Source: an uncultured Bacteroidales bacterium
GTDB lineage: Bacteria; Bacteroidota; Bacteroidia; Bacteroidales; Paludibacteraceae
NCBI GenBank assembly: GCA_902784425.1
Contig: CACZUS010000014.1
Coordinates: 7,699 to 50,706, forward strand
Length of the DNA stretch: 43,008 nucleotides
Direction: 5' to 3'
In this document: piece after piece, positions 22,933 through 42,455 of the stretch
Layout of the letters: the number at the start of each line of letters is the position of its first letter
How positions within the stretch are numbered: the stretch's first letter is position 1
Program-made: the position numbers and the translations under genes
The notes under the pieces: generated by a model
The model's input: the letters and a program-made list of their open reading frames with translations, nothing else
Database searches by the model: none
Told to the model about the DNA's origin: nothing

Positions 22933-23541
22933 ATGAATATCGAAAGCAGAGAAAAAATAACGAGAGGAGCTTTGGATTTATTTCTTTCACATGGGATAAA
23001 GACGGTGACGATGGATAAAATTGCAGCGGCTTTGTCTATGTCTAAGCGTACTATTTACGAACAGTTTAGTGATAAGGGAGAATTAGTGACAGAGTGCCTG
23101 AAATTATTTAGAGAAGAGTTGGACAAGGAACGTGATGATATACGTGCTAAATCAGAAAACTCTTTTGTTTTCTTGTTGTCCATGTTTAAGATGAGTTTTC
23201 TCAGACTAAATGGGATAAATATACGTTTCCTTCAAGATGTTGAGACAATTTTTTCAGAAGAGATAAAGAGGTGTAGATTGAATAGACCTTCGCAGATTGA
23301 ACAAATGAGCGAGTTGATCCGTCAGTCGCAAAAGGATGGATATGTAGATCCTACGCTATCTTCGGATGTTTCGGCAACGGTTTATTATGGAATGATAAGT
23401 TCATTGAGAGATAAAGATTCGTATGATTATTCGGTGGTATCACCTAAAGATGTGTTAAAGATTTTGTGTACAATCTATTTCAGAGGTATTGCTACTGAAA
23501 AGGGGTTGAAACTGATAACTCAATATGTTGAATCCGTTTGA
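22933..23541 (+). CDS. TetR/AcrR family transcriptional regulator
   Basis: The protein has 202 residues. The N-terminal helix-turn-helix is clear (REKITRGALDLFLSHGIKTV followed by TMDKIAAALSMSKRTIYEQF), residues 6-46, and the helical C-terminal ligand domain is of normal length. Such proteins repress efflux operons until a substrate binds. It is the first gene of the operon with TolC, adaptor and RND genes; the TolC ATG lies 26 bases after its stop, so it most likely controls its own operon. The inducing compound is unknown. Confidence 0.95.
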   Translation: MNIESREKITRGALDLFLSHGIKTVTMDKIAAALSMSKRTIYEQFSDKGELVTECLKLFREELDKERDDIRAKSENSFVFLLSMFKMSFLRLNGINIRFLQDVETIFSEEIKRCRLNRPSQIEQMSELIRQSQKDGYVDPTLSSDVSATVYYGMISSLRDKDSYDYSVVSPKDVLKILCTIYFRGIATEKGLKLITQYVESV

Positions 23542-23567
23542 AAATAAAATTAATATATAAATATACA

Positions 23568-24905
23568 ATGAGAAGTGTGTTAAAAAAAGGAGGGTGCTTG
23601 TTGGCGTTGTCTCTGATGATGGGGTCGCCACTTTATGCACAGACGAATGATGCACAGGTCGCTGTTGCGAGCGATAGTTCTAATGTGATATCATTCACTT
23701 TGGATGAGGCTAAGAAGTATGCGTTGGAACACAATCGTACGATACAGAATGCATCGTATGATGTAAAGAAGGCGGAGGCAGATCGATGGAAAGCGATTGC
23801 AAGCATGTTGTTGCAAGTAAATGGTAACGTCGACTATTATAATATGTTTGGTTATGAGATGAATATGGGAGGGATGAAAATGCCAATGCCTCCTTATTTC
23901 GATTTCGGTGTGAAAGCATCTGCTACCGTAAGTGGATCACAAATCATAGGTGTGAAATTGGCTAATATGGCTCGAGATTTGTCGCAAGTAGCAGTGGCAA
24001 AAACCGATCAGGTGATCACCTCCAATATTGAAACGTCATATATTAACATATTGGCATTAGAGACAATGACTCGTTTGTTGGAGCAAGGTATGCTGAATTT
24101 GGATAGCTTGTATAAGATGACGTTGAATGCGGTTCGTGTTGGTGCTGCAGAGCAAAATGCAGCTGATCAAATCGCTGTTCAGGTGGCTATGATGAAGAGT
24201 CAGGTGAATAGTACGCAAAGAACGATTGAAGTTATGTATAATTCGATTCGCCTTTTGACGGGCGTGCCTGCTGATGTTGATATTGTTCTCTCACAGAAAA
24301 TTGAGGATGTGGTGAATGCCGCTTCCATTATGGAATTGATGGGGTCTGACTTGAACCTCTATAACAATTATGATTATCAGTTGAAATCGCAAAGCACAGA
24401 ACTCTCTAAGAAACAGGTGACGCTAAGCAAAATGGCTTACGTCCCTTCTCTAACCGTCTTTTATGCATGGGATAAAAAAGAGTATTGCTCTGATGAGGCT
24501 ATGACCGCTCCTAATATGACCCCTCCTAATACGTTTGGATTGACGTTGAATGTACCTATCTGGTCTTCTGGTAGTCGCTATGCAGACGTAAAGGGTGCGA
24601 AAATAGAATACGCTAAAGCTCAGAATGAGTTGGAAGATACGGAACTCCAATTGAAAATACAGGAGAAACAATTGCGTTATAACTTAGTATCAGCTTTTGA
24701 AAATTATCAGATTCAAAACGAGAATATGGAGGTGATGCAACGTGTCTTCAAAAGTAATACGGAGAAGTTTAAGTATGGAACCATTTCAAGTATGGATTTG
24801 ACACGATCAAGCACAGATTTGGTAAATGCTCAGAATACGTATGTATCAGCATTGGTCGATATGATTACGGCTCATGTGGAATTGAAAAAGCTCTTAAATA
24901 AATAA
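23568..24905 (+). CDS. TolC family outer-membrane efflux protein
   Basis: The protein has 445 residues from the ATG at 23568; the TTG at 23538 lies inside the end of the TetR gene and would put a basic tail before the signal peptide. The signal peptide ends in SPLYAQ. The mature protein starts with FTLDEAKKYALEHNRTIQNA, the usual first helix of TolC-type proteins, and the two halves share helical repeats rich in Ala, Gln and Asn (DMARD-like and YAKAQNELEDTELQ). It forms the outer-membrane duct for the adaptor and pump encoded next. It is complete. Confidence 0.93.
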   Translation: MRSVLKKGGCLLALSLMMGSPLYAQTNDAQVAVASDSSNVISFTLDEAKKYALEHNRTIQNASYDVKKAEADRWKAIASMLLQVNGNVDYYNMFGYEMNMGGMKMPMPPYFDFGVKASATVSGSQIIGVKLANMARDLSQVAVAKTDQVITSNIETSYINILALETMTRLLEQGMLNLDSLYKMTLNAVRVGAAEQNAADQIAVQVAMMKSQVNSTQRTIEVMYNSIRLLTGVPADVDIVLSQKIEDVVNAASIMELMGSDLNLYNNYDYQLKSQSTELSKKQVTLSKMAYVPSLTVFYAWDKKEYCSDEAMTAPNMTPPNTFGLTLNVPIWSSGSRYADVKGAKIEYAKAQNELEDTELQLKIQEKQLRYNLVSAFENYQIQNENMEVMQRVFKSNTEKFKYGTISSMDLTRSSTDLVNAQNTYVSALVDMITAHVELKKLLNK

Positions 24906-24934
24906 TTCGATAATAATTAAAACTAATAATACAG

Positions 24935-26101
24935 ATGAAAAAAGTAGTAAGATTGGGCTGGACTGCTATAATGGCTCTCACATTGGCCAGTGTTTCGACA
25001 AGTTGTGGCGATGACAAGAAACAGTCTGCCGAAGAAAACAAGGTCGAAGAGAAGATTGTAAAGATTCGTACGGAGACTGTTGTTAAGCAGGAGATCGAAC
25101 GAGAGGTGGATTGTACTTCTGTGCTTGAGGGATATGAGACGATGAATGTGTCTCCTTCATTGACAGGTATCATTGAAAAGAGATATAAAGATGTTGGTGA
25201 TCGTGTTGCAGCTGGCGAGTTGTTGGTTCGCATGGATCAAACTCAATTGAAACAAGCCAAACTCCAAGTGGCTAATCTGGAAACAGAGATGAAACGTATG
25301 GATGCTTTGCTTGCTGGTGGTAACGTCACACAACAGCTCTACGATCAAACGAAATTGGGTTACGATCAGGCAAAAGAACAATTAGAGTTTTTGCAAACCA
25401 ATACCTTCTTTAAGGCAACATTCCCAGGTATTGTTTCTGCTCGTAACTATGAGAATGGCGAGTTGTACAATGGTGCACGTCCTATCTTAACCGTTGTTCA
25501 GATCAACCTTTTGAAGACGATTATCAACGTGCCAGAAATGTATTTCCCTAAAATCAAACAGGGTATGAAGTTGGATATCATCTCTGATATCTATCCAGAT
25601 ACTAAATTCCCTGCTACAATAGAAACAATCTATCCTACAATTGATGCGGCTACGCACACTTTCCAATGTAAGGTGAGAATTCCTAATGGAAGTCTTAAAC
25701 TTCGTCCGGGTATGTATATCCATACAACAGTACCTGTTGGAAAAGAGAAGGTGGTAGCAGTTCCTTATCAATCTGTTTTGAAATTGTCAGGATCTAATGA
25801 TCGTTATTTGTTCTTAAACGAAGATGGCTATGCAAAACGTGTTTCTGTTGAAATCGGACAACGTTTCAATAAATACATCGAAGTGTTTGCTGAAGATGTT
25901 CGTGAGGGCAAAGAGGTGGTTGTTCAAGGTCAGAATGGTTTGATCGATGGAACGAAGGTTCAAGTATTGAATACTACTTATGAAGAGGAGGCTGCTGCTA
26001 AATCAAATATAACTTCGTCAGTTGTTCCAACAGATGAGCCAGATACGGAAAAAGTTGTATCCGCACCTGCTGAGAAAAACGTAATTGACCAGAAAAAGTG
26101 A
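24935..26101 (+). CDS. RND efflux periplasmic adaptor (membrane fusion protein)
   Basis: The protein has 388 residues. It is a lipoprotein: Cys24 in SVSTSCGDD. The lipoyl-like domain begins near residue 70 (GYETMNVSPSLTGIIEKRYK and VGDRVAAGELLVRMDQ). The alpha-hairpin is QLKQAKLQVANLETEMKRMD to YDQTKLGYDQAKEQLEFLQT. The second lipoyl half (FKATFPGIVSARNYENGELY) and beta-barrel follow, and the last 40 residues are a low-complexity tail. The protein links the RND pump to TolC across the periplasm. It is 29 bases after tolC and 81 bases before the pump gene; the latter gap is long for this operon and holds a dispersed repeat. Confidence 0.95.
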   Translation: MKKVVRLGWTAIMALTLASVSTSCGDDKKQSAEENKVEEKIVKIRTETVVKQEIEREVDCTSVLEGYETMNVSPSLTGIIEKRYKDVGDRVAAGELLVRMDQTQLKQAKLQVANLETEMKRMDALLAGGNVTQQLYDQTKLGYDQAKEQLEFLQTNTFFKATFPGIVSARNYENGELYNGARPILTVVQINLLKTIINVPEMYFPKIKQGMKLDIISDIYPDTKFPATIETIYPTIDAATHTFQCKVRIPNGSLKLRPGMYIHTTVPVGKEKVVAVPYQSVLKLSGSNDRYLFLNEDGYAKRVSVEIGQRFNKYIEVFAEDVREGKEVVVQGQNGLIDGTKVQVLNTTYEEEAAAKSNITSSVVPTDEPDTEKVVSAPAEKNVIDQKK

Positions 26102-26144
26102 GTTCCATAAATTCACCATTTTAAAACAAGATAATATGAATTGT

Positions 26145-26170
26145 GGATCTATTTTATAGACCCCACCTTT
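26145..26170. repeat. Dispersed TATAGA-CCCACC repeat, copy 1
   Basis: TTTTATAGACCCCACCTTT lies in the adaptor-pump gap. Related copies are at 30891, 31084 and 34120 (ATAGA-CCCAC core). A partial reverse copy (GTTCCATAAATTC) is at 26103, so the gap could fold as an imperfect inverted repeat. Function is unknown. Confidence 0.55.
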
Positions 26171-26182
26171 AAATAAGAAAAA

Positions 26183-29100
26183 ATGAGTATCTATAAAACC
26201 GCGATAAACAAACCGGTCACCTCTATTTTGATATTCGTGGCCGTCATGTTGATGGGTATATTTGCTTATATCAAATTGCCTATCGACCAATATCCTGAGA
26301 TTGATCCTCCTTTCGTAGCAGTTATGTGTGCCTATCCTGGTGCCAATGCGAGTGAGGTGGAAACCAATATCACCAAGTATTTGGAGAATGCATTGAACTC
26401 TGTGGATGGATTGGATGAGTTGACTTCTGTGTCAAAAGATAATCTCTCCTTGGTGGCTCTTGAGTTTGAATGGGGTGGAAATTTGGATGAAGTGATGAAC
26501 GACATCCGATCGTACGTCGACATGGCAAAGGATAACTTGCCTTCTGGAGCGTCAAACCCTTATATCATCAAATTTAACAGCTCCTCCATGCCAATCATCC
26601 AGTTTGCTGTTCAGGCAAAAGAGAGTTATCCAGGCTTGGAGAAGATTATGAACGATGAGGTGATCCCTCAGTTAAGCCGTGTGGACGGTGTGGGTAATGT
26701 GAGTATGTCTGGTGAACCTGATCGTTACATCTACGTGGATATCGATCAGAAGCAACTGGATGCCTACAGCATTACTTTGGAAACTGTTGGTAATGTCATC
26801 GCCAACAATAACTTGAACCTCTCATCTGGTAATGTGAAGATGAAGAAGGAACAATACGCTTTGCAAGTACGTAGTGAGTACATGGAAAGTTCGGAATTGG
26901 CCAACCTCGTCGTTACAACCACACCTGATGGTAAGCAAATCTATGTGCGAGACATCGCTACCGTGCGCGATACCATCAAGGATCTGACCTTGGATGAAAA
27001 GTTTAATGGTGAAGAGGCTGTTCGTCTGATTATCTCTAAACAGACGGGTGGTAATACCGTACAGATCTGTAAAGATATTCACAAGGAGTTGGAAAAGATC
27101 CAAAAGACACTTCCTGCCGATGTGCAGTTTAAGGAGATCTACGATTCATCTACCGAAATCACCAATGCCATCAATTCATTGGAAGAATCAGTGCTCTATG
27201 CAGTCGGATTCGTTGTGTTGGTCGTATTGTTCTTCTTGGGTAAGTGGCGTGCTAGTGTCATCATTGGACTGACAATCCCTATCTCTTTGTTGGTAGCATT
27301 CCTTTACTTGCTCTTTGTGGACAGTTCTTTGAACATCATTTCACTTTGTTCCCTTTCCATTGCAGTAGGTATGGTGGTGGATGATGCTATTGTGGTCTTG
27401 GAGAATATTTCTACACATATAGAACGAGGCTCCAGTCCGCGTGAAGCTGCCATCTATGGCACGAACGAGGTGTGGGTTTCCGTTATCGCTACCACTTTGG
27501 TGATTGCTGCGGTATTCGTTCCGTTGACTATGTTGACAGGTATCGCTGGTGTCATGTTCAAGGAGTTGGGTTGGATTGTTACCATCGTTTGTTGTACGTC
27601 AACGGCAGTGGCTATCTCTTTGGTACCTATGCTTTGCTCTAAATTGTTGAAGGCGAAGACGGTGAAACTGGATGCGCATGGTAACATTATCAAAGAAAAA
27701 GAGGATACGAGAAAACTCTCTTACAAGAATACCGTCGTTAAGTTCTTGGACAAACTGGATGCTGCTTATGCTAATATCCTTCGTTGGTGTTTGTCTCATA
27801 AATTATATACGTTGTTGATGGTTTTGGGATTCTTCGGTCTCTCATTGGTTCCTGCTTTAACGGGACATATTGGAACCGACTTTATGGCGGTGCCTGATAC
27901 GGGACGTTTGACTGTCGATGTAGAGTTGTTGCAAGGTACTCGTGTAGAGGAGACGGCCAAGTTTGCTCGTATGTTGGAGAAACGCTTCTTCGAGATCGTT
28001 CCTGAAACACAAAGAATCTCTACTACGTGTGGTTCAAATGATGCTGCAGGAATCTCTGCTTTGTTCTCTTCTACGAGAAACAACACCATTCAAATGCGTT
28101 TTAATGCAGGTAAGAAATATACGCGTGAACGTCCTATCACTGAGATTGCCGAGGTCCTTCGTCAGGAAATAGCCTCTTACCCAGAAGTGGCCGATTATAA
28201 GGTGGCTGTATCTTCTGGTGGTGGTATGGGTGGACAAAGTACGGTAGACGTTGAGGTATACGGATACGATTTTGATGCAACGAGTGCATACGCTGCTAAG
28301 GTGAAACATTTGTTGGAGAATGATCCTGCCACTCGTGACATTGCACGTAACGTGGATATCAGCCGTGATGATGACCGTCCGGAATTGAAGGTAACGGTAG
28401 ATAAGGAGAAGGCTGCACGTCATGGTCTCTCCTCTGCTATTGTTGCTTCATACGTGCGCAACCGTGTTAATGGTATGGCTTGCGGATATTTGAAAGAAGA
28501 TGGTGATGAGTATGATATCTTGGTACGTTTGAAAGAAGAAAATAGAAGCTCTATTGATGCCATTGAAGATTTGACAATTCCTACATCAACAGGATTGGTT
28601 AAGTTGAGCGAGATTGCCATTGTTGAGGAATATTGGGGTCCGCCAGAAATCGAGCGTAAGAGTCGTCAACGTTACTTGAAAGTGGAAGTGACTCCATACA
28701 ACACCTCTTTGGGTGAATTGGCTGTTGCCATTGAGAGTGTTTTGCCACAAGTAGAGAAACCACACGGTGTCACTGTTGTCTTGGGTGGTAGCTATGAAGA
28801 CCAACAAGAGTCATTCCAAGATATGGGATTGTTGCTTTTGATTATTGTCATCTTGGTTTATGTGGTGATGGCTTCACAGTTTGAATCCTATGCGAAACCA
28901 TTTATCATCATGATGGCGGTTCCATTCGCCTTCTCGGGTGTGATTTGGGCATTGTTCATCACTGGTAAATCATTGGATATGATTGGAGCTTTGGGTTGTA
29001 TCATGTTGGTTGGTATTGTGGTGAAGAATGGTATCGTGTTGGTGGATTATATCAACTTGATGCGAGACAGAGGATTTGAATTGAACGAGGCAATTGCCTT

Positions 29101-29425
29101 GTCAGGTCAATCACGTCTTCGTCCGGTATTGATGACGGCGATGACAACCATCTTGGGTATGTTGCCTATGGCTTTGGCTACTTCAGACGGTTCTGAGATG
29201 TGGGTGCCAATGGGTGTGGTTGTAATCGGTGGATTGCTAGTCTCTACAATGGTCACTTTGGTGGTTGTCCCAGTCTTGTATGGCGTTATGTCCAGACATG
29301 GCGAACGAGACAAGGAAGAGGAAATCCGTAAACAATATATCTTTATGGATATTAATGCGGACGACGAGGGAGAAACGAAAAGGTCTCTTCCCAAAAATGA
29401 AGAAAATAGGTTTGATAAACGATAA
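26183..29425 (+). CDS. RND efflux transporter, HAE1/AcrB family
   Basis: The protein has 1080 residues. It is a proton-driven inner-membrane pump that passes hydrophobic compounds to the adaptor and TolC. The N-terminus is typical (MSIYKTAINKPVTSILIFVA). The proton-relay Asp pair is present in VGMVVDDAIVVLENIS near residue 400, and the matching lysine segment in MLVGIVVKNGIVLVDYINLM near residue 945. The porter domain segments (SVDGLDELTSVSKDNLSLVA and others) are also normal. About 55 charged residues trail the last membrane helix, ending in NEENRFDKR. Substrate is not readable; multidrug or bile-type export is the usual guess. Confidence 0.96.
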   Translation: MSIYKTAINKPVTSILIFVAVMLMGIFAYIKLPIDQYPEIDPPFVAVMCAYPGANASEVETNITKYLENALNSVDGLDELTSVSKDNLSLVALEFEWGGNLDEVMNDIRSYVDMAKDNLPSGASNPYIIKFNSSSMPIIQFAVQAKESYPGLEKIMNDEVIPQLSRVDGVGNVSMSGEPDRYIYVDIDQKQLDAYSITLETVGNVIANNNLNLSSGNVKMKKEQYALQVRSEYMESSELANLVVTTTPDGKQIYVRDIATVRDTIKDLTLDEKFNGEEAVRLIISKQTGGNTVQICKDIHKELEKIQKTLPADVQFKEIYDSSTEITNAINSLEESVLYAVGFVVLVVLFFLGKWRASVIIGLTIPISLLVAFLYLLFVDSSLNIISLCSLSIAVGMVVDDAIVVLENISTHIERGSSPREAAIYGTNEVWVSVIATTLVIAAVFVPLTMLTGIAGVMFKELGWIVTIVCCTSTAVAISLVPMLCSKLLKAKTVKLDAHGNIIKEKEDTRKLSYKNTVVKFLDKLDAAYANILRWCLSHKLYTLLMVLGFFGLSLVPALTGHIGTDFMAVPDTGRLTVDVELLQGTRVEETAKFARMLEKRFFEIVPETQRISTTCGSNDAAGISALFSSTRNNTIQMRFNAGKKYTRERPITEIAEVLRQEIASYPEVADYKVAVSSGGGMGGQSTVDVEVYGYDFDATSAYAAKVKHLLENDPATRDIARNVDISRDDDRPELKVTVDKEKAARHGLSSAIVASYVRNRVNGMACGYLKEDGDEYDILVRLKEENRSSIDAIEDLTIPTSTGLVKLSEIAIVEEYWGPPEIERKSRQRYLKVEVTPYNTSLGELAVAIESVLPQVEKPHGVTVVLGGSYEDQQESFQDMGLLLLIIVILVYVVMASQFESYAKPFIIMMAVPFAFSGVIWALFITGKSLDMIGALGCIMLVGIVVKNGIVLVDYINLMRDRGFELNEAIALSGQSRLRPVLMTAMTTILGMLPMALATSDGSEMWVPMGVVVIGGLLVSTMVTLVVVPVLYGVMSRHGERDKEEEIRKQYIFMDINADDEGETKRSLPKNEENRFDKR

Positions 29426-34185: not shown

Positions 34186-34270
34186 TCTAAAGTTTGGAGT
34201 GGTGAAAATCTAAAGTTTGACATGGTGAAAATCTAAAGTTTAGGGTGGTAAAAATCTAAAGTTTTGAATG
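34186..34270 (+). repeat. 23-base-period tandem repeat, about 3.7 copies
   Basis: TCTAAAGTTT begins at 34186, 34209, 34232 and 34255, exactly 23 bases apart. The first three units also share a GTGGTGAAAA-like end; the fourth is cut short. The period is close to two helical turns, as in iterons or protein-binding arrays. It lies between the CotH gene and the island promoter. Confidence 0.85.
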
Positions 34271-34381: not shown

Positions 34382-34418
34382 TTACGAAAATAGAGTTCGT
34401 AACACCATTCTACATTTG
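34382..34418 (+). promoter_or_regulatory. Promoter and operator of the HAD-PRTase-DprA operon
   Basis: A perfect inverted repeat TTACGAA-N7-TTCGTAA (34382-34402) is followed after 8 bases by the -7 box TACATTTG (34411-34418). The TTG element usual at -33 is missing; the inverted repeat takes its place. A protein bound there would control polymerase access. The same arrangement stands before the AAA gene at 36547. Confidence 0.75.
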
Positions 34419-34437
34419 CATCGTAATTAAAAATACG

Positions 34438-34974
34438 ATGAAAATGAATTACATTTTTGATTTAGATAACACGCTTATTTATACTGATTTCGCAAATAAC
34501 ATTGCATACAGAGAGGCAGTTAAAAATGTCATCGGTGCAGACTTGGAAATTTGTCGTACTCGAATAACACGAGATAATATTGCAAGGCAGTTTCCTAATT
34601 TGTCTGCAGATGATATGTCAAAAGTAATTCAAGAAAAGGAGCATCAATATGAGATTCATATTAACAAAACAATACTTAACACAGCACTTGTTGATGCACT
34701 CAAATATATGAAAGATAATAATATGTCTCCCATGTTGCTGACTTACAGTTCAAAACATCGTGCAGAGCAATTGTTAAGGTATCATGGAATTAGTAATTTG
34801 TTTTCTGCAAAATATTACAAAGAGGATTATGAAGGAAAGAGTAAATATAAGTATGCTACATCCACTCTTGGTCTTAAAGGTAGTGACATTATCCTTTTTG
34901 AAAATGAACAAGAGGGAATGAAAGAGGCTGTATGTGATGGAATCATCCAGAAAAACATTATCAGATTCGTATAA
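34438..34974 (+). CDS. HAD-superfamily hydrolase-like protein
   Basis: The protein has 178 residues. HAD motif I is YIFDLDNTLIY (Asp8, Asp10), motif II LTYSSKHRAE (Thr102), and a lysine lies in EGKSKYKY (motif III). Motif IV is unusual: ILFENEQEGM where most HADs have Asp, so the metal site may be altered or use Glu155. A helical cap lies between motif I and II. It is probably a phosphatase acting on a small phosphorylated molecule, perhaps a nucleotide or the phosphoribosyl product of its neighbour (inference). It is the first gene of the operon; the next begins 17 bases later. Confidence 0.88.
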   Translation: MKMNYIFDLDNTLIYTDFANNIAYREAVKNVIGADLEICRTRITRDNIARQFPNLSADDMSKVIQEKEHQYEIHINKTILNTALVDALKYMKDNNMSPMLLTYSSKHRAEQLLRYHGISNLFSAKYYKEDYEGKSKYKYATSTLGLKGSDIILFENEQEGMKEAVCDGIIQKNIIRFV

Positions 34975-34991
34975 TTATTAAAATTTTGGGA

Positions 34992-35597
34992 ATGAGAAAT
35001 TTTACAATAGATTCTAATTGTTTTCTTGATCAAAACATTGTTGCATATCACAATTGTGATTATATTCGTTATCAAGCACCAGGAAATCCTGACTTCATTA
35101 ATGGACTTAAGAACCAGTACAATAGTTACTCAGTATCAAAATTGAATTGCGATGCTGCACAACTCATGTCAGTATTAAGAAACGATTTACCTGAAATATA
35201 TCAAAAACACGGACATCTTAACGTCTGTGTAGTTCCCAGAGCAAAAGCATTATGTACATATAATGTCAATCAATTGCTTTTCCGCGAAACTATCCGTAGC
35301 TTTGTGAATGCTAATAGTGGCATGTTTTCCGATGGTGTGGACTACATTATAAGACACACCAATACAAAGACAACTCACCTTTGGCGGTATGACAATGACG
35401 GAAGCATGCCATATAAGGGCATTACAATTAACACATGCACAATCTCGCCAGATGTCAGAGGGAAAAAAATCCTCTTAATAGATGATATATACACAAAAAG
35501 TATCAATATTGATGAGGATGCTATTCAAAGTCTCTATGATAATGGTGCGAACGAGGTGATATTTTACGCTGTGGCAAAAACCATTAAAAAATTTTGA
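34992..35597 (+). CDS. Phosphoribosyltransferase-like protein
   Basis: The protein has 201 residues from ATG 34992; a TTG two codons upstream is less likely. The PRPP-binding loop of type I phosphoribosyltransferases is KKILLIDDIYTKSINIDED (near residue 160), where the usual last part (TG-T) is replaced by KSIN. Strand LNVCVVPRAK near 75 may be the other part of the site. It resembles ComFC-type proteins in form. Such enzymes make or break nucleotide-phosphoribose links; here the substrate is unknown. Only one base separates its stop from the dprA-like start, so they are surely co-expressed and probably act together. Confidence 0.82.
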   Translation: MRNFTIDSNCFLDQNIVAYHNCDYIRYQAPGNPDFINGLKNQYNSYSVSKLNCDAAQLMSVLRNDLPEIYQKHGHLNVCVVPRAKALCTYNVNQLLFRETIRSFVNANSGMFSDGVDYIIRHTNTKTTHLWRYDNDGSMPYKGITINTCTISPDVRGKKILLIDDIYTKSINIDEDAIQSLYDNGANEVIFYAVAKTIKKF

Positions 35598-35598
35598 T

Positions 35599-36549
35599 AT
35601 GAAAAAAACAGACAACGCTATAAATATTTTAACAGCCCTTAAATACAAGGGTATTGGCAATGCATGGATTTACAACAACCTAAGAGGAGGAGAAAGTGCA
35701 GAAGTTATTATGAAGAAACTGAATGAAAAGAAAATTCAAGTTACTCTTTCTGACTTTTACCAGAAACGTGATGAAATAAGAACCATTCTCAATGACCTGT
35801 ACAAACAGGTGAATGGATTTGGTATAACAGCTTTGGGAGATGATGACTTCCCAAAGATTGAGAATAATATTCTACCAGCAGACAATCCTGTTGTACTATT
35901 TTATAAAGGAGATATCAATCTGCTAGAAAGCCAGAGTAATAACGTTGCAGTAATTGGCGTTTTGACACCGTCAAGTGATGTGGAACGACGAGAACGAGAA
36001 GTTGTCAAGATGCTTGTCAATAAAAATGTTACCATTGTTAGTGGACTTGCACTTGGTTGTGATTCCATTTCGCATGATGAAACGATCAGAAACAACGGCA
36101 AGACTATTGCAATACTTCCAAGTCCGTTAAATGACATTTTACCTAAATCAAATCAGCAACTTGCAAATGAAATATTGTGTTCAGGAGGTCTTCTTGTAAC
36201 AGAGTATTACGAACCGGTATCTTCAAGACACGAGCTCAGTTCACGTTATATAAAACGTGACAGACTTCAGGCAATGTTTTGCAAATGTGTTGTCTTGGCT
36301 GCAAGTTATGCAGAAAATAACGAAGGAAAGGATTGTGGTTCACGCCATGCGATGCAAAAGGCCAAAGAATACGGTGTGATGCGTGCAGTGGTTTATAATG
36401 AAGAAACAGATTCAAGTAACCAGATGTTTGATCTTTCAAGGCAGATAATTAGAGAGGGAAGGGCGATAATTCTGAAACAAGATGATTTAGAATCCTCAAT
36501 TCAAAAAATCTGTGACAAAAAGATTACAAAACAAATAAGTTTGTTTTAA
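35599..36549 (+). CDS. DprA/SMF-like Rossmann protein
   Basis: The protein has 316 residues. A short N-terminal helical part (1-75) precedes a DprA/SMF-type Rossmann domain: VVLFYKGDINLLE, VAVIGVLTPSSD (110-127), SGLALGCDSISHDETI (148-163), KTIAILPSPLNDILPKSNQQ (168-187) and SSRYIKRDRLQAMF (214-227). True DprA, which loads RecA on DNA in transformation, has VAIVGSR and FPxRNRIIAGLS at the matching places; here both are changed. The C-terminal wHTH of DprA is missing. It may therefore bind a nucleotide rather than act in transformation; members of this broader fold (with LOG proteins) serve as effectors or sensors in immune systems. This role is inferred. Confidence 0.85.
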   Translation: MKKTDNAINILTALKYKGIGNAWIYNNLRGGESAEVIMKKLNEKKIQVTLSDFYQKRDEIRTILNDLYKQVNGFGITALGDDDFPKIENNILPADNPVVLFYKGDINLLESQSNNVAVIGVLTPSSDVERREREVVKMLVNKNVTIVSGLALGCDSISHDETIRNNGKTIAILPSPLNDILPKSNQQLANEILCSGGLLVTEYYEPVSSRHELSSRYIKRDRLQAMFCKCVVLAASYAENNEGKDCGSRHAMQKAKEYGVMRAVVYNEETDSSNQMFDLSRQIIREGRAIILKQDDLESSIQKICDKKITKQISLF

Positions 36550-36583
36550 CGAAAATAGATTTCGCAACAGCTCTTTACATTTG
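36547..36583 (+). promoter_or_regulatory. Promoter and operator of the AAA-WYL operon
   Basis: TAACGAA-N7-TTCGCAA (36547-36567) is followed after 8 bases by TACATTTG (36576-36583). Over 37 bases it matches the promoter at 34385 at 30 positions, including CGAAAATAGA, TTCG, AACA and TACATTTGCA. It starts inside the stop codon of the DprA-like gene. Transcription should begin near 36590, giving a leader of about 44 bases. Confidence 0.75.
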
Positions 36584-36633: not shown

Positions 36634-38694
36634 ATGAATACAAAACTTACCATAAAAAATTTCAGGGTTTTTGACGAAAACGGAGTGATGGTTAACTTGA
36701 AACCAATTACTGTGCTTACTGGTTGCAATTCATCTGGAAAAAGTTCGGTGGTGAAAGCAGCGTTGATGCTTAATGATGTGTTTAGACAATTACCATCTTT
36801 TTTTAAAAATTATAAAGAGACTCATGATCTAAGTGAAATAAAACTTGATTTCACAAAATATCCTAATAATCTTTTAGGTGGTTTCGATAAGATTTTACAT
36901 GATTCAAAAACAGGGAAAATCACGTTTGAATATACCATATATTCGTGTTGTATTTCCAAAGAAGTAACAATTGCCTTTGATTTTTTCGCTGATCAATATA
37001 ATAAATTGAAAAATGCCCATCTTGAGAATGTTAGGATAATGACCGAAGATGGTATTATATTTTCGATAGGAAAGAATACTGAAGATGAAGGGGAAAAAAT
37101 AAAAAAATTAGCATCTCGCCTACCCGAATACTATAAAGACAATAAGTCTATAAATATAGACAGAGAAGACGACATGGAAAAAGTGGCGAAAAAGCTTTAT
37201 AGACTTTATACCAGCAGAATTAATGTTAATCTCATAAAGAAGTTCCTTGATTTCTCTGTATTCCAGAGTATTCATTACTCACTCATAAAAAACGGAACAA
37301 TAGATTACGGGGCCGGAGATATTGTTTCTGTTTCCTGTGAAAATTATAATGAAAAAGAGTGTAAGAGACTATACAATCTCTATAAAGATTACGCCACTCT
37401 TTTTCAATCGGAAGAAACAAGATGGAGAGATATTTGCAAAATATGGGAAGAAAAAGAAATAGAACCTATCTGTAATGAAACAGATTTTGATATAATTGAA
37501 AAAATATTGACAGACAAATCTTTCTTTTTCATTCCCGTACTAGCAGATTTGGACAAAATATGTAAGAACGATATTGAAAAATATTTCAATGATTGTAATT
37601 TATCTGACTTCATAGAAAATACTTTTAACGCAAAAGAAGATGTTGATGTTAAGTCGTTTAATAATTCCATCAAAGATGTATTGGATGATTTCATGTCAAG
37701 TGATGCAGAAACTTTTTCTGAATATTTCAAACAGTTAGAATCAGAAATGTATATAAGTGACATAGAAAAAATGTTAAACGAACAATGGCTTAGTGTAATT
37801 TTAAATCTAGATTCTAAAACAAAATTTGAAAAGGCATACATTATTACTATGTTTTTGAATAAAAAAATGTATCCAGAGAATACTAATTTCTACCGATATG
37901 ATATTAGAGAATCAAACAATGGATTAGTATTTGCAGTGGGATGCACACACAAATCAGTAGAAATGTTTACGAAATTTATTGGTATGTTTTTGAATGAGTG
38001 TTTTCTCTTTTCTTCTCATTTTAATGGCTCAATGACTTATGTTAGTTCTGCCCGTGCAACAATAAAACGTCTCTATCCACTTGACAAAGAAGATGATTTC
38101 ACCATATTGCTGAAAGTATATATGGAGACTAGACACAAAGGGACGTTTATCAACAAATGGGTCAAGAAATTCGGAATTGGAGATTCTGTTTCTTTTTCAA
38201 TGGACGAAGACGGGGTAGGCGCAAAAATTCGCTTACACAAAACGTCCGATGACAAAAAAGGTAGACTTTTGGCGGATGAAGGTTATGGTATAACTCAATT
38301 ACTTTCTATTTTGCTTCAAATTCAAATATCACCGCGTGGTACGACCATTGCTGTAGAAGAACCAGAAATTCATTTGCATCCGAAATATCAGTCTTTATTG
38401 GCAGATATGTTTGTGAATGCATACAAGGAGCGTGACATTCAGTTTATCATAGAAACTCACAGCGAGTATCTAATCCGTCGTTTACAACTTTTGGTTGCAG
38501 GGGTGGTGGATGCAGAACAAAAACTTGACAAAAACGACGTTTCTATTTCGTACATTTACACCAAGGAGGAGGCAGAAAAAGAGAATCAGCCGCTTGTAAA
38601 GAATATTTCGATTTGCGAGGATGGCTACCTTGACGATACTTTTGGTAGTGGATTCTTTGACGAGGCAACCAAACTTTCTCGGAAATTGATGTAA
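36634..38694 (+). CDS. OLD-like AAA ATPase, DUF3696 type
   Basis: The protein has 686 residues. Walker A is TGCNSSGKSSVVKAALML (residues 29-46), the GxNxxGKSS form of OLD-like and SMC-related ATPases. A long helical insertion of about 430 residues follows. Walker B with its signature is TIAVEEPEIHLHPKYQSLLA (near 571), and the H-loop is FIIETHSEYLIRRLQ (near 605). The C-terminal 60 residues (ISYIYTKEEAEKENQPLVKN and EDGYLDDTFGSGFFDEA) match the DUF3696 end as I recall it. No Toprim nuclease is attached, so it is not a full OLD protein; the effector probably lies in the next gene. It likely senses and powers an antiviral complex (inference). Confidence 0.93.
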   Translation: MNTKLTIKNFRVFDENGVMVNLKPITVLTGCNSSGKSSVVKAALMLNDVFRQLPSFFKNYKETHDLSEIKLDFTKYPNNLLGGFDKILHDSKTGKITFEYTIYSCCISKEVTIAFDFFADQYNKLKNAHLENVRIMTEDGIIFSIGKNTEDEGEKIKKLASRLPEYYKDNKSINIDREDDMEKVAKKLYRLYTSRINVNLIKKFLDFSVFQSIHYSLIKNGTIDYGAGDIVSVSCENYNEKECKRLYNLYKDYATLFQSEETRWRDICKIWEEKEIEPICNETDFDIIEKILTDKSFFFIPVLADLDKICKNDIEKYFNDCNLSDFIENTFNAKEDVDVKSFNNSIKDVLDDFMSSDAETFSEYFKQLESEMYISDIEKMLNEQWLSVILNLDSKTKFEKAYIITMFLNKKMYPENTNFYRYDIRESNNGLVFAVGCTHKSVEMFTKFIGMFLNECFLFSSHFNGSMTYVSSARATIKRLYPLDKEDDFTILLKVYMETRHKGTFINKWVKKFGIGDSVSFSMDEDGVGAKIRLHKTSDDKKGRLLADEGYGITQLLSILLQIQISPRGTTIAVEEPEIHLHPKYQSLLADMFVNAYKERDIQFIIETHSEYLIRRLQLLVAGVVDAEQKLDKNDVSISYIYTKEEAEKENQPLVKNISICEDGYLDDTFGSGFFDEATKLSRKLM

Positions 38695-38696
38695 AA

Positions 38697-38704
38697 AAGG
38701 AGGT
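38697..38704 (+). promoter_or_regulatory. Strong ribosome binding site before the PLD-like gene
   Basis: AAGGAGGT lies 3 bases before the ATG at 38708 and 2 bases after the upstream TAA. A perfect Shine-Dalgarno sequence is uncommon in this phylum, and the short 3-base spacing is also unusual. Confidence 0.6.
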
Positions 38705-38707
38705 TGT

Positions 38708-39817
38708 ATGGCAGAAAGATACCGTAAACACGTCTATTGTGAGAAAAAATTTCTTGATCACTGCATCAAAACGATTGCAGAATGGAAGTTTTGTGAGGAA
38801 AGTTTTGAAGAACTCAGGCTTTGGATGTGTATTAAAGAATTGATTTTTTCGTCGGATATAATCCTTCATTTAGATATTTCGGGTGAGGATTTGCCTCTGT
38901 CATACGGAGTTAAGCCCAAGAAAGATTTCCCCGTTTGGGCAAAAGAACTTGCGCAAATGCAAAGTGAACAAAAAATCCATTTGAAACTTGGCGATTTTGT
39001 AACGCCCGAAAACATCAACAAATCAAACGACATTCATCTCACGGCTTATTATTTGACTTGTTGTGATTCTACGAAGTGCCGAAATTGTATGAACGAATGT
39101 GGCGTTTTGGCAATTTGTCCCGAAAATATCCAGGATTTCAAAGATATTTTTTCTGACAATGGAACAGCAATCGACAAAAACGATGAATATATAAAAAGTT
39201 GGAAAAGTGTCCTTAATTTTTCTCCTTGTAATTCTATTGCATTGGTAGACAATTATATATTGACTGATACAAATATGATGAATGAGAATTTGGCGGATAT
39301 TTTTGATGCACTATTACCTGAAAAACTGAATGTTGAAATTCCATTTCAAATTTCAATATTTACTACATTGAAATCAAGTGATTTAAAATTTGATATAAAT
39401 AGCGAAGACCGTCAAAATTGTATTGAATCTCTCATTAGGAAGATTCGTCCCAATTTGCGATTCAACCTTTCAATCTTCAAAGTTTCAAAAGATAAGTTTC
39501 ACGATAGGTCTCTTGTATCCAACAATTTTTATGTCAGTTGTGGTGGGGGATTCGACCTTTTCAAAGAGAAAAAATCTACCAAAATGACCACAATTAATAT
39601 TGTTTATCCTGTTTTGAACAATTCTGTTTATTGGACTTCTGCGGCATACTCGAATTTTATCAAGGAGGTGACGTCTGTTTTCAATCGGGCAACATCTTTT
39701 GACACTATAAAAAAGAATTTGTCATTTAATGGAGCAACAATAAAAATCGACCCTAATACAATGACAGGTTTTTATGTCGGCGACAAGCAAAACCGTTTAT
39801 GTGAACTGATAAAATAA
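38708..39817 (+). CDS. Unrecognised protein with Cys cluster and PLD-like C-terminal motif
   Basis: The protein has 369 residues and no family I can name. A Cys cluster, C118 C119 C124 C127 C131 C137 (TCCDSTKCRNCMNECGVLAI), looks like a metal-binding knuckle. The second half has the pattern of an HDR-type PLD-like domain: CNSIALVDNYILTD (174-187), strand IPFQISIFTTL (211-221), RFNLSIFKV (251-259) and FHDRSLVSNNFYVSCGGGFD (264-283) followed by LF. The last piece resembles the HDR..(N)..GxGxDxF motif of MIT_C and related PLD-like domains. It may be the nuclease or effector partner of the AAA protein 13 bases upstream. Both domain calls rest on pattern, not on a search. Confidence 0.85.
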   Translation: MAERYRKHVYCEKKFLDHCIKTIAEWKFCEESFEELRLWMCIKELIFSSDIILHLDISGEDLPLSYGVKPKKDFPVWAKELAQMQSEQKIHLKLGDFVTPENINKSNDIHLTAYYLTCCDSTKCRNCMNECGVLAICPENIQDFKDIFSDNGTAIDKNDEYIKSWKSVLNFSPCNSIALVDNYILTDTNMMNENLADIFDALLPEKLNVEIPFQISIFTTLKSSDLKFDINSEDRQNCIESLIRKIRPNLRFNLSIFKVSKDKFHDRSLVSNNFYVSCGGGFDLFKEKKSTKMTTINIVYPVLNNSVYWTSAAYSNFIKEVTSVFNRATSFDTIKKNLSFNGATIKIDPNTMTGFYVGDKQNRLCELIK

Positions 39818-39822
39818 ACACA

Positions 39823-41421
39823 ATGCTAACCCTCACCTCCATATTATCCCATCCCGAATCCTCGCACTTGGAAGGAAAAAGTGCGAAGGGTGGTTTTCCT
39901 GATTCTTTTTGGGAAAGTTATTCCGCGTTTGCAAATAGCGATGGCGGCGTGATTATCCTTGGCGTCGAAGAAGACAAAGACGGAAAACTCATTGTAAATG
40001 ACGGTTTAAAAGATGCCACAAAGATGAAAGACACTTTTTGGAAACTTGTCAACAACCGTCAGAAGATCAGCCATAACATCGTCTTGGAGAAATGCGTTTA
40101 TATTCTCGACGCGGATGACAAGCAAATACTTGTTGTGGAAATACCAAGGGCGGAACGCACCGTTAGACCTGTTTATAAAGGCTCTGACCCGCGTAATGGC
40201 ACTTATAAGCGTTTTGGCACGGGCGATCACCTTTGCACAGCCGAAGAGGTCGGTGCAATGTTAAGGGATTCAAGCATTTCGCCGCTCGATGCTGTTGTAG
40301 TGGAGGATATTGACCTGACGGCTTTGAATATGGAGACTGTTAGGGGCTACCGTCAGATGTTTAAATTGACTAACCCAAGCCACCTTTGGAACACTCTCGA
40401 CGATGAGATTTTCCTTCGACGTATCAGGGCCACTGGTGCTGCTCAAGATGGCAAATATCATCCTACAGAGGCGGGACTGTTGATGTTTGGCTACGAGTAT
40501 GAAATTACACGCCGTTTTCCTCAGTATTTTCTTGATTATCAAGAAGACAGAAATGTTATAGGTGTTGCCAAATGGAAAGACCGCATAGTGTCGACGTCGG
40601 GCGATTGGAGTGGTAATGTGTTTGATTTTGCAATGAAAATTCTGACCAAATTGCAGTCGGACCTGAAAATTCCATTTGTTGTGAAAGGTTTTCAGCGCGT
40701 TGATGATACACCACTACATCGACTTCTGCGAGAGGCGGTTACTAATTGTCTTGTTCACGCCGATTATTACGGACGTCAGGGAATTGTTGTTAGTAAAAAC
40801 AAAGATGGTTTTGTGTTTGCCAATCCAGGCGGAATGAGAATTTCAAAGAACGAGGCATTGGCAGGTGGAGTATCCGATCCAAGAAATGCTACTTTGCTGA
40901 AAATGTTTTCGTTCATTCGTTTTGGCGAGCGTGCTGGAAGTGGTCTCAATGGCATTGTGTACGTTTGGAAAAAGGTTTATCACACCGAACCTGAAATTTT
41001 TGTTAAGGAAGAATACGACCGTACATTTCTAAAACTTCCGACCTTGGGCAAAGAACCCGACATGGAAGCAATGGCAGAATTTTACCCTGACGAAGATGAG
41101 CCGAGCAATAAACAATCGGTAAATGACCTTGTAAATGTCAGATCAAATGACCCAGTAAATGCAAATGACCCAGTAAATGTCACGGCAAATGACCCTGTAA
41201 ATACAAATGACCCTGTAAATGTTAGAGCAAATGAGAGATTGCTTGTTTGTATTTCTAAGAATCCTTATGGCACTTATAAGGAGTTTGCTTTATTATTAGG
41301 TAAATCACCTGCAACTATTAAAAGAATGCTAAAACAGTTACGCGAAGAAGGTATGATTCGCCGCATTGGTGCCGACAAAAACGGTCATTGGGAAGTGATT
41401 AACAATCAATCTGATAAATAA
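39823..41421 (+). CDS. AlbA_2/Schlafen-type ATP-binding protein with HATPase_c_4 domain
   Basis: The protein has 532 residues. The N-terminal AlbA_2 (Schlafen-like) domain shows SHLEGKSAKGGFPDSFWESY and AFANSDGGVIILGVEEDKDG (residues 14-54). Near residue 300 is the HATPase_c_4 signature REAVTNCLVHADYYGRQG, followed by VFANPGGMRISKNEALAGG and FGERAGSGL. A linker with a repeated NDPVN motif (residues 433-469) joins a C-terminal winged-helix domain (KEFALLLGKSPATIKRMLKQ then LREEGMIRR). It is often annotated as a RecG-like or transcriptional regulator protein; AlbA_2 proteins are common in defence islands. It sits 5 bases after the PLD-like gene and 2 bases before the WYL gene. By eye it seems richer in GC than its neighbours, so it may have a separate origin. 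Confidence 0.92.
   Translation: MLTLTSILSHPESSHLEGKSAKGGFPDSFWESYSAFANSDGGVIILGVEEDKDGKLIVNDGLKDATKMKDTFWKLVNNRQKISHNIVLEKCVYILDADDKQILVVEIPRAERTVRPVYKGSDPRNGTYKRFGTGDHLCTAEEVGAMLRDSSISPLDAVVVEDIDLTALNMETVRGYRQMFKLTNPSHLWNTLDDEIFLRRIRATGAAQDGKYHPTEAGLLMFGYEYEITRRFPQYFLDYQEDRNVIGVAKWKDRIVSTSGDWSGNVFDFAMKILTKLQSDLKIPFVVKGFQRVDDTPLHRLLREAVTNCLVHADYYGRQGIVVSKNKDGFVFANPGGMRISKNEALAGGVSDPRNATLLKMFSFIRFGERAGSGLNGIVYVWKKVYHTEPEIFVKEEYDRTFLKLPTLGKEPDMEAMAEFYPDEDEPSNKQSVNDLVNVRSNDPVNANDPVNVTANDPVNTNDPVNVRANERLLVCISKNPYGTYKEFALLLGKSPATIKRMLKQLREEGMIRRIGADKNGHWEVINNQSDK
41121..41228 (+). repeat. In-frame NDPVN repeat of alternating 24 and 18 bases
   Basis: AAATGACC begins at 41121, 41145, 41163, 41187 and 41205, with a related AAATGAG at 41229, giving steps of 24, 18, 24, 18 and 24 bases. 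All steps are multiples of three, so changes in copy number would keep the frame and only alter linker length before the winged helix. Confidence 0.85.
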
Positions 41422-41423
41422 TT

Positions 41424-42455
41424 ATGCCCACCAATAAGAACGCCCTCTCCCGTATTAAGTTCCTTGATGAACTTCTTTCTGATCGTCATCATTTTTATAA
41501 TCTTGATGATTTAACAGAGAAGTGCAACGAAAAGCTTGAATCAATAGATGTGAAACCTGTTACCCGTCGTATGATTGAAAAGGATCTCAATTATATCGAA
41601 TATGAGATGTTTTTCGCTGAGATAGAGAGGTATTCTGCTGCGGGGAAACATTGTCTTCGTTATGCAGACCCATCATTTTCAATTTTCACAAAGAAACTCT
41701 CCAACGACGAGAAAAATCTTTTGCAAGAGACTCTTTCGACTCTCGGACAATTTGATGGCTTGAAAAATTTTGAGTGGCTCGAAGACTTCAAAAAACGCCT
41801 CGACATTGAGGAACGGCGGCGCATAATATGTTTTAGCAACAATCCATATTTGAAGAATAGCAATATCTTAGGTCAGATTTTTGACTTTATATCAAATCGT
41901 GTAGTAGTTCTTCTAACTTACCAACGTTTTGGATATAATAAGCCCCAAAATGTTGAATTGTTCCCATACCTTTTGAAACAGTATAATGATCGTTGGTATC
42001 TTGTTGGTAGTGCGACTGATGATGATAAAATATTGACATTCCCACTAGATCGTATTGTAGAAATTCAACCTTCCACAAATCAATGTTATAAAAATCCACC
42101 TGATGATTTTGATGAGTATTTTGATGATATTATTGGTGTTTCTAATTATTCAGAAAACCCTATGTTACACATTGTTTTTTGGGTAAGTGATTATTCCAAA
42201 GATTATATATTAACTAAACCTATGCATGGATCACAGAAAACTATTTCTGGCGACAACGAAATATCCTTACGAGAGAAATATCCTAAGCTTACATGCGGAG
42301 ACTTCTTTTCGATAGAATGCAAATGTAATTATGAATTGATTAGAACATTATCATCTTTCGGAAGAGAATTGCTAGTTCTAAGTCCAATAGAAATACAAAA
42401 TAAAATAAAACAGAGAGCTTTAGATATGACAATGAGCTATCAAGAATTCCTTTAG
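41424..42455 (+). CDS. WYL-domain transcriptional regulator
   Basis: The protein has 343 residues. Residues 1-85 are a winged-helix-type domain (LDDLTEKCNEKL, VTRRMIEKDLNYIEYEM). The WYL domain spans about 155-240, with PYLLKQYNDRWYLVGSATDD near 180 (R and WYL motif) and FPLDRIVEI near 206. A WCX-like domain ends the protein (CKCNYELIRTLSSFGRELLV). WYL regulators such as CapW and BrxR repress defence operons through inverted repeats at their promoters. This gene is last in its operon, 2 bases after the AlbA_2 gene. It is the natural candidate to bind the shared inverted repeats at 34382 and 36547; this is inferred. Confidence 0.95.
   Translation: MPTNKNALSRIKFLDELLSDRHHFYNLDDLTEKCNEKLESIDVKPVTRRMIEKDLNYIEYEMFFAEIERYSAAGKHCLRYADPSFSIFTKKLSNDEKNLLQETLSTLGQFDGLKNFEWLEDFKKRLDIEERRRIICFSNNPYLKNSNILGQIFDFISNRVVVLLTYQRFGYNKPQNVELFPYLLKQYNDRWYLVGSATDDDKILTFPLDRIVEIQPSTNQCYKNPPDDFDEYFDDIIGVSNYSENPMLHIVFWVSDYSKDYILTKPMHGSQKTISGDNEISLREKYPKLTCGDFFSIECKCNYELIRTLSSFGRELLVLSPIEIQNKIKQRALDMTMSYQEFL

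Follow-up and report, generated by a model that had tools for sequence, protein, structure and literature searches.

The question of how the many, potentially toxic defence systems of bacteria are coordinated is raised in a concrete form by a stretch of 43,008 nucleotides from an uncultured Bacteroidales bacterium (contig CACZUS010000014.1), which we refer to as the window. Two neighbouring operons of this stretch (operon 1, 34438-36549; operon 2, 36634-42455; the contig ends with the window) resemble anti-phage systems and share one promoter design with an inverted repeat, here called the operator, and the last gene of operon 2 encodes a WYL regulator. Does this regulator join both operons into one system, as the original prediction had proposed? 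Our analysis supports the proposal, since the operator recurs with orthologues of the WYL protein and its half-site changes with the WYL clade. Judging from these sequence comparisons, the two operons very probably constitute one WYL-bound regulon.

Two matching promoters in one genome

The promoters at 34382-34418 and 36547-36583 are identical at 30 of 37 positions, as originally claimed, while the adjoining 20-bp blocks agree at only 4 to 8 of 20. Direct reading of both promoters also confirmed the inverted repeats in the place of the -33 element, 8 bases ahead of a -7 box (TACATTTG in both cases, Table 1), for which the consensus TAnnTTTG is cited in the available excerpt of PMC7366714. The second repeat is imperfect, with 5 of the 7 arm positions pairing.

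The whole genome was covered by pattern searches, and a position weight matrix (PWM) was applied to the matched places and to the loci described below. The degenerate 37-mer, allowing up to 3 mismatches, occurred at two places in the 3.32-Mb genome, which are the two window sites, and its reversed control at none. With a looser promoter pattern, the nearest further place (contig C24, 1 mismatch) reached a PWM score of 13.0, compared to 44.8 and 32.1 for the two operators. An occurrence of the motif at many unrelated promoters of this genome, which would argue against a common regulon, was thus not found. The bare motif ACGAA-N7-TTCG matched 26 times on the forward and 26 times on the reverse strand (reversed control, 11 and 8) and was dropped as a signal in its own right, because it is too frequent without the -7 box to carry meaning; specificity therefore lies in the combination of palindrome, spacing and -7 box.

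The operator accompanies one clade of WYL proteins

A scan of a contig collection with the WYL protein yielded 42 loci (L-numbers denote loci, G-numbers genomes). Relatives with a tblastn E-value of at most 8e-62 were designated WYL-A, the next relative being at 2e-54; members with full-length proteins form one branch in trees, while percent identity does not divide the group (L039 with 36% lies inside, L043 and L055 with 36% outside). The pattern RCGAA-N7-TTCG-N11-TAnnTTTG was present in 22 of 42 genomes, i.e. that of the window and 41 others, and its reversed control in none of the 42. It was found in 22 of the 24 genomes with WYL-A, compared to none of the 18 reached only via more distant WYL proteins, and in the two WYL-A genomes without the exact pattern (G006 and G017) the palindrome lies one base nearer to the -7 box. 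An off-island match common to G002, G003 and G022 (score 15.7 in G003) is probably a chance occurrence in a conserved stretch, the off-island matches in G009 and G010 score below 14, and two matches in G019 are located ahead of further WYL genes. The latter two genes (L149, 619-1674; L150, 493-1557), on small contigs of one genome, each lie directly behind a site with CGAA half-sites.

In a background sample of 393 Bacteroidales genomes, the pattern matched 27 times in 22 genomes and the reversed pattern 14 times. Eight of the 27 matches belong to the five genomes with the top WYL scores, while the 19 matches in the other 388 are about at the level of the reversed pattern. Some WYL relative was detected in 164 of the 393 genomes at an E-value of 1e-10, with a gap in score between 322.9 bits (51%) and 188.6 bits (38%). 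All five genomes above this gap carry an island site of at least 31.5: the pattern sites of G000, G062, G152 and G333 have PWM scores of at least 32 and the island site of G428 (L021) scores 31.5, compared to at most 27.8 (L108) in the other 17 sample genomes with matches. Over 40 loci, the PWM scan returned 75 matches with a score of at least 14, including five duplicates from the overlap of L159 and L037, and none in shuffled copies.

The upstream regions of orthologous operons, a check suggested together with the original prediction, point in the same direction. The operon encoding the HAD, phosphoribosyltransferase (PRTase) and DprA-like proteins carries the site in the window, in L026 and in L019/L156, which are two contigs of one genome, a contig end cutting the HAD gene. 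As a cargo control we used the six other sample genomes with a DprA relative (E-value below 1e-30), one of which is that of L026. From the remaining five, L168, L169 and L171 were testable (in L168 the HAD gene lies near a contig end, with at most about 400 bp upstream), while L170 breaks off before the operon begins, and the DprA gene of L173 is not preceded by a HAD or PRTase relative. No CGAA palindrome was found before the operon in the three testable loci, which are without WYL-A, and the best PWM score in all five loci was 6.8.

Half-site classes follow the WYL tree

A search blind to CGAA, requiring 7-base arms, an N7 spacer, 7-8 bp to a -7 box and an open frame downstream, retrieved 74 candidates in 77 WYL loci, some of which are counted twice because six loci (L174-L179) overlap others, compared to 1, 1 and 2 in shuffled copies. 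Most arms fall into four half-site classes, namely CGAA (the clade of the window), CGCA, TGCA and TTCA. On a tree of 71 WYL proteins, the half-site class of the 38 rows with a best candidate from these four classes required 3 changes, the minimum for four states, compared to a minimum of 12 after shuffling; with the odd rows L043, L050 and L121 kept (41 rows, 7 states), 6 changes were needed (shuffled minimum, 15). A careful tree of 67 rows, without the long branches L136, L181, L056 and L137, again gave 3 changes, and in this tree the CGAA and CGCA groups each occupy one side of a fully supported branch. The half-site class follows the WYL tree, and the palindromes of other clades differ in sequence while keeping this geometry. 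The genome of the window itself encodes a WYL paralogue (L180) with a CGCA-class palindrome, unlike the window operators; this site, CTACGCA-N7-TGCGTAG (contig C79, 8518-8538), has the same geometry and lies ahead of a divergent gene. In a different WYL clade (L042-L046, L055), GTGCA-N7-TGCAC sites occur at up to three per locus, with a mostly conserved AAGCAG ahead of the -7 box.

The palindrome could also be read by another regulator, with the WYL gene as a passenger. The Schlafen (SLFN) protein of operon 2 has a winged helix-turn-helix (wHTH) and precedes the WYL gene in several islands, and the palindrome is similar to an SOS box lengthened by one base, the Gram-positive SOS box being CGAAC-N4-GTTCG, so that a LexA-like repressor comes into consideration as well. 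However, there are islands with sites and no SLFN relative by blastp (L019, L025, L030, L033-L035, L039 and L040 among others), a LexA-type site would be expected genome-wide, yet only two sites were found, and the half-site changes with the WYL clade. For these reasons we judged a reader other than the WYL protein very unlikely.

Several observations weigh against a regulon that is defined by the WYL protein. Only 41 of the 71 tree rows have a palindrome candidate (30 do not, and many of these have about 1.5 kb of flank), and inspection of the DNA-contact and recognition-helix residues revealed none that decisively separates the half-site classes. G003 belongs to the 22 matching genomes by its off-island match only, its island site (L021) having a mismatch and a 7-bp spacing. 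No site of at least 25 was found in L020, L023 and L038, of which the first two are short contigs and the third (in G019) is not, and none in L136, a long branch that the quick tree places within the CGAA clade, while L108 has a site-like match in a genome without a WYL match at 1e-10. In addition, the PWM was trained partly on the islands that it scores (leave-one-out scores, 27.1-48.5), and every named WYL-A relative is a metagenome assembly, in most cases from ruminants; two of them, L032 and L034, are labelled Bacillota or Lachnospiraceae and are perhaps mis-binned.

Promoter geometry and the sign of control

The WYL protein has 343 amino acids, and R190, W191, Y192 together with L208, D209 and R210 of its WYL domain are invariant in 22 sequences. 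Its AlphaFold2 model comprises a wHTH (predicted elements H5-18, H27-40, H48-61, E67-72 and E75-80), a helical linker, the WYL domain and an alpha/beta C-terminal domain; the N-terminal wHTH is predicted by the model and by Foldseek, and a Pfam WCX match was obtained for the relative L149 and none for the window protein. The best Foldseek matches were PafBC and DriD, followed by CapW and BrxR, all with low TM-scores of 0.2-0.3.

The palindromes lie over the -33 position, and their arms end 8 bp, sometimes 7 bp, ahead of the -7 box. Perfect clade-A palindromes were read 115 times, counting both strands; in 46 of these readings a -7 box is present at up to 60 bp, in 44 cases at 10 or 9 nt from TTCGY. 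The 7-bp spacing occurs at six sites, five of which precede the WYL gene itself (L024, L036, L037, L039, L040), the sixth being that of L021. About 2 of 52 operator promoters have a TTTG in the -33 place, compared to about 15% of 277 other TAnnTTTG promoters; since the latter are also low in this element, its scarcity lends weak support. Within the spacer, the core NA.AG points in the direction of the promoter in the CGAA class (46 cores, on average 2.2 of 3 forward vs 0.3 reversed), in the CGCA class (12 cores, 2.6 vs 0.1) and in the two cores of the TTCA class.

The position of the site allows a comparison with WYL proteins of known action. CapW sites lie on the -10 element and the first BrxR box after it, while DriD sites lie on the -35 element at one distance from the -10 element, which favours activation over repression for the promoters described here: their operator occupies the -35/-33 place at a near-fixed distance from the -7 box, as in DriD and PafBC, with a centre at about -30 rather than -35 by our count, and an operator overlapping or downstream of the -10 element was not found. 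Given a regulon, the analogy suggests that the WYL protein acts, on balance, as an activator of the DriD/PafBC type. We infer the following course, from binding and dimerisation to the trigger, the sign of control and the defence function. The WYL protein would bind the palindromes of both operons as a dimer, its winged helices reading the operator arms, and the site centre, which is conserved in promoter orientation, would lie near the missing -33 element. Single-stranded DNA (ssDNA) from infection or damage would load the WYL domain, and the loaded protein would help RNA polymerase to start at the -33-less promoters, in the manner of DriD and PafBC. Together with the operon of AAA, SLFN and WYL genes, the ShosTA-like operon would then form one autoregulated defence regulon. 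The ssDNA signal is suggested by PafBC and DriD, by a statement on CapW/BrxR and by the title of the CapW structure 9c5g.

It is quite possible, though, that the same regulon is controlled by a repressor of the CapW/BrxR type, which would keep both promoters shut until it is released by ssDNA or a different ligand. Both CapW and BrxR act as repressors of their defence operons, CapW of its own gene as well, and two BrxR boxes are present in pEFER, as stated in the available parts of the respective papers; an excerpt of a 2026 paper further describes CapW/BrxR as repressing until bound to ssDNA. The operator fills the space between the -33 and -7 elements, so that a steric block would be easy, leaky toxic modules would presumably be costly, and CapW and BrxR are among the Foldseek matches. 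However, the -7 box is left free here, whereas CapW sits on the -10 element and the first BrxR box downstream of it, the spacing is near-fixed across operator classes with the -33 element mostly missing, and PafBC and DriD outscore CapW and BrxR in Foldseek.

Activation by the WYL protein has its own difficulties. The orientation of the NA.AG core fails in the TGCA class (18 cores, 1.0 vs 1.1), and by our count the palindrome centre is closer to the -7 box by about 5 bp than that of DriD sites, so that the dimer might sit on another face of the DNA. The WYL model is of moderate quality (pLDDT 75.8, pTM 0.40).

Modules behind the operators in related islands

Excluding the window, 26 WYL-A loci were counted, L020 and L027 being from one genome. 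At least one site with a score of at least 25 was found in 23 of the 26, and two to four such sites in 15; the WYL gene frequently has its own site. Module families were assigned by scanning selected genes, several of which have no family match. ShosTA-like modules are found at sites in the window and L026, AAA genes together with a relative of the 38708..39817 protein in the window, L030 and L039, PIF1 helicases in L033, L035 and L039, UvrD-like helicases in L025 (behind the WYL gene) and L146, an OLD-like AAA-TOPRIM protein in L041, an aspartic protease in L026 and DUF3825 in L033, again behind the WYL gene. Ten reverse transcriptases (RTs) are located at sites in L019, L022, L026, L028, L037 (two), L040, L052, L145 and L146.

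The first genes other than RT genes mostly start about 50-65 bp past the site (85 bp for operon 2 of the window), with longer distances of up to 490 bp in L021, L027, L028, L029, L031, L041 and L157. Nine of the ten RT genes are the first behind the site, at 261-380 bp, while in L028 a frame of 201 amino acids lies between. Strong folding was obtained for all ten RT leaders (224-343 nt; z-scores of -3.2 to -8.6, 60 shuffles each), and by eye nine of them have long end pairing as in retron msr-msd RNA. The combination of an RT gene with a structured leader upstream, which characterises retrons, is thus found in the relatives and not in the window. An Rfam search of six of the nine RT-bearing loci gave no retron family at the cut-off, the only hits being two tRNAs and one SAM riboswitch. 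In L019 and L022, the RT includes a HisKin-conflict domain, with a receiver-domain protein encoded behind it. In L037, the WYL gene is separated from a divergent operator at 9608 by a SAM-I/IV riboswitch (9718-9835, minus strand), and in L146 the tRNA genes (1501-1587 and 17275-17348) flank the WYL island as possible integration points. Among viral contigs, the pattern matched 20 times, none of the matches being a relative by tblastn, so there is no sign of islands riding on catalogued phages.

Taken together, the distribution suggests that one regulator gene goes with a shared tag across arrays of interchangeable modules, and for this reason the two operons of the window are probably switched as one unit.

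Homology breaks at operators

From position 33001 onwards, the window and L019 are 84% alike over 35372-36564 and 41373-42446 and not between these blocks, where the window encodes the AAA protein, the 38708..39817 protein and the SLFN protein, and L019 an RT, an uncharacterised protein and a receiver. The left block ends inside operator 2. Among the loci with operators, 11 of 96 internal homology-block ends are no more than 30 bp away from an operator in each of the two partners, compared to 0.7 expected and a random maximum of 5 in 2000 trials. In five of these cases the operator is simply that of the WYL gene, lying where the conserved WYL gene begins, while the other six cases involve module sites (window/L019, L025/L026, L026/L146, L033/L035 and two in L037/L040). 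Since locus pairs are not independent and a functional site enters any adjacent block, this shows that modules are accompanied by their operator, not how they move.

As homology blocks often begin or end at sites, the likeness of the promoters might merely reflect common descent of a promoter piece that is carried along with recombining modules, without a shared regulator. We regard this as most improbable: the sites have kept their arms, spacing and -7 box but not the sequence of the N8 spacer, and the arms vary by WYL clade inside one geometry, which indicates selection rather than mere descent. Reading the observations jointly under a WYL regulon, we tentatively propose that the islands could be open arrays of cassettes, each consisting of a WYL operator, a -33-less promoter and a module, which would be exchanged by recombination at the operators, newcomers entering the ssDNA-responsive regulon at once. 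Retron-like cassettes, which would yield ssDNA, may feed back on the WYL sensor. If this is true, separate arrays could coexist in one genome without cross-talk, owing to their clade-specific operators.

Features of the window

The features of both operons are compiled in Table 1. According to PADLOC, operon 1 has the adjacent ShosT PRTase and ShosA DprA-like genes of a ShosTA system. A distant relative of the 38708..39817 protein adjoins the AAA gene in L030, L039 and L055 too. At the left edge of the island, operator 1 is separated from a CotH/DUF6383 gene by a stretch with 3.4 copies of a 23-bp tandem repeat (TCTAAAGTTTGGAGTGGTGAAAA, 34186-34264), and a TetR regulator and RND efflux genes (OEP, HlyD, AcrB-like) are located further upstream (22933-29425).

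Table 1 Promoter elements and genes of the two operons in the window.
Feature	Position	Strand	Evidence
Operator 1, inverted repeat TTACGAA-N7-TTCGTAA over the -33 position	34382..34402	+	Direct reading; PWM 44.8; palindrome recurs with WYL orthologues
-7 box TACATTTG of promoter 1, 8 bp past the repeat	34411..34418	+	Direct reading; consensus TAnnTTTG
HAD-like hydrolase, first gene of operon 1	34438..34974	+	Pfam HAD_2 1.2e-07
PRTase-like, ShosT-like; TTG start listed, ATG two codons on	34986..35597	+	PADLOC ShosT 3.8e-09; no Pfam match
DprA/Smf-like, ShosA-like	35599..36549	+	Pfam DNA_processg_A 9.3e-38; PADLOC ShosA 3.4e-53
Operator 2, inverted repeat TAACGAA-N7-TTCGCAA, starting on the stop codon of the DprA-like gene	36547..36567	+	Direct reading; PWM 32.1; homology to L019 ends inside, at 36564
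-7 box TACATTTG of promoter 2, 8 bp past the repeat	36576..36583	+	Direct reading
AAA ATPase (AAA_15/AAA_21, DUF3696), NsnB-like, first gene of operon 2	36634..38694	+	Pfam, PADLOC
Second gene of operon 2, MIT_C match under the cut-off	38708..39817	+	Pfam
Schlafen AlbA_2 / RecG-C-like protein, C-terminal wHTH	39823..41421	+	Pfam SLFN_AlbA_2 1.2e-13, HATPase_c_4, HTH_24
WYL regulator, last gene of operon 2, proposed binder of both operators	41424..42455	+	Pfam WYL 7.1e-12; AlphaFold2 model, Foldseek; operator class tracks its tree

Comparison with known systems

These islands appear to be a new, modular form of defence islands that are probably WYL-controlled. The original prediction stands with respect to one shared regulon, but it missed the generality of the arrangement, i.e. 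several modules per island, some of them retron-like, and homology breaks at operators. One type of regulator seems to tie unrelated modules, retron-like ones included, to a single switch via a short DNA tag. If so, regulons could be recognised in sequence data by the tag, which would also suggest which uncharacterised neighbours act in defence, while the four half-site classes offer paired WYL proteins and operators for work on specificity. Among the matches listed from the open-access literature (titles and beginnings of abstracts), none concerned multi-operon WYL regulons in Bacteroidales or WYL-controlled retrons.

Control like that by CapW or BrxR had been suggested at the outset; this is partly right, but the site, in the -33 place at a near-constant distance from the -7 box, is nearer to that of DriD and PafBC. 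The PafBC element is non-palindromic. As far as the available excerpts of the papers cited here describe these systems, BrxR of pEFER (PMC9122601) is like the window in combining a WYL regulator, a defence island and two inverted-repeat boxes, and BrxR homologues also adjoin islands with several systems. It differs in that its first box lies downstream of the -10 element and that it represses, whereas window-type islands have the site in the -33 place, up to four operators before unrelated modules and clade-specific half-sites. CapW of CBASS (PMC9122588) has the wHTH-WYL-WCX plan that the window protein probably follows, and is also alike in a palindrome of about 20 bp and in autoregulation, which is proposed here for the window protein, but its site is on the -10 element in one shared promoter region, whereas window-type sites lie upstream of the -7 box in several operons. 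DriD of Caulobacter (PMC12340889) is likewise a WYL protein that acts on several promoters, its sites overlapping a poor -35 element at a constant distance from the -10 element; in contrast to the modules side by side in an island, DriD controls DNA-damage genes. PafBC is a WYL activator that takes a place between sigma domain 4 and the promoter DNA (PMC11804915); it resembles the window protein in length and domain order, but is a heterodimer. Two further works bear on the coordination of several defences, one on a regulatory system in pseudomonads (PMC11888443) and one on RptR, a non-WYL repressor of a defence island (PMC12255303). Operon 1, finally, resembles the ShosTA or P2-hotspot DprA-PRTase system (PMC9122126) in its adjacent DprA-like and PRTase genes and differs from it by the extra HAD gene and the WYL-type operator.

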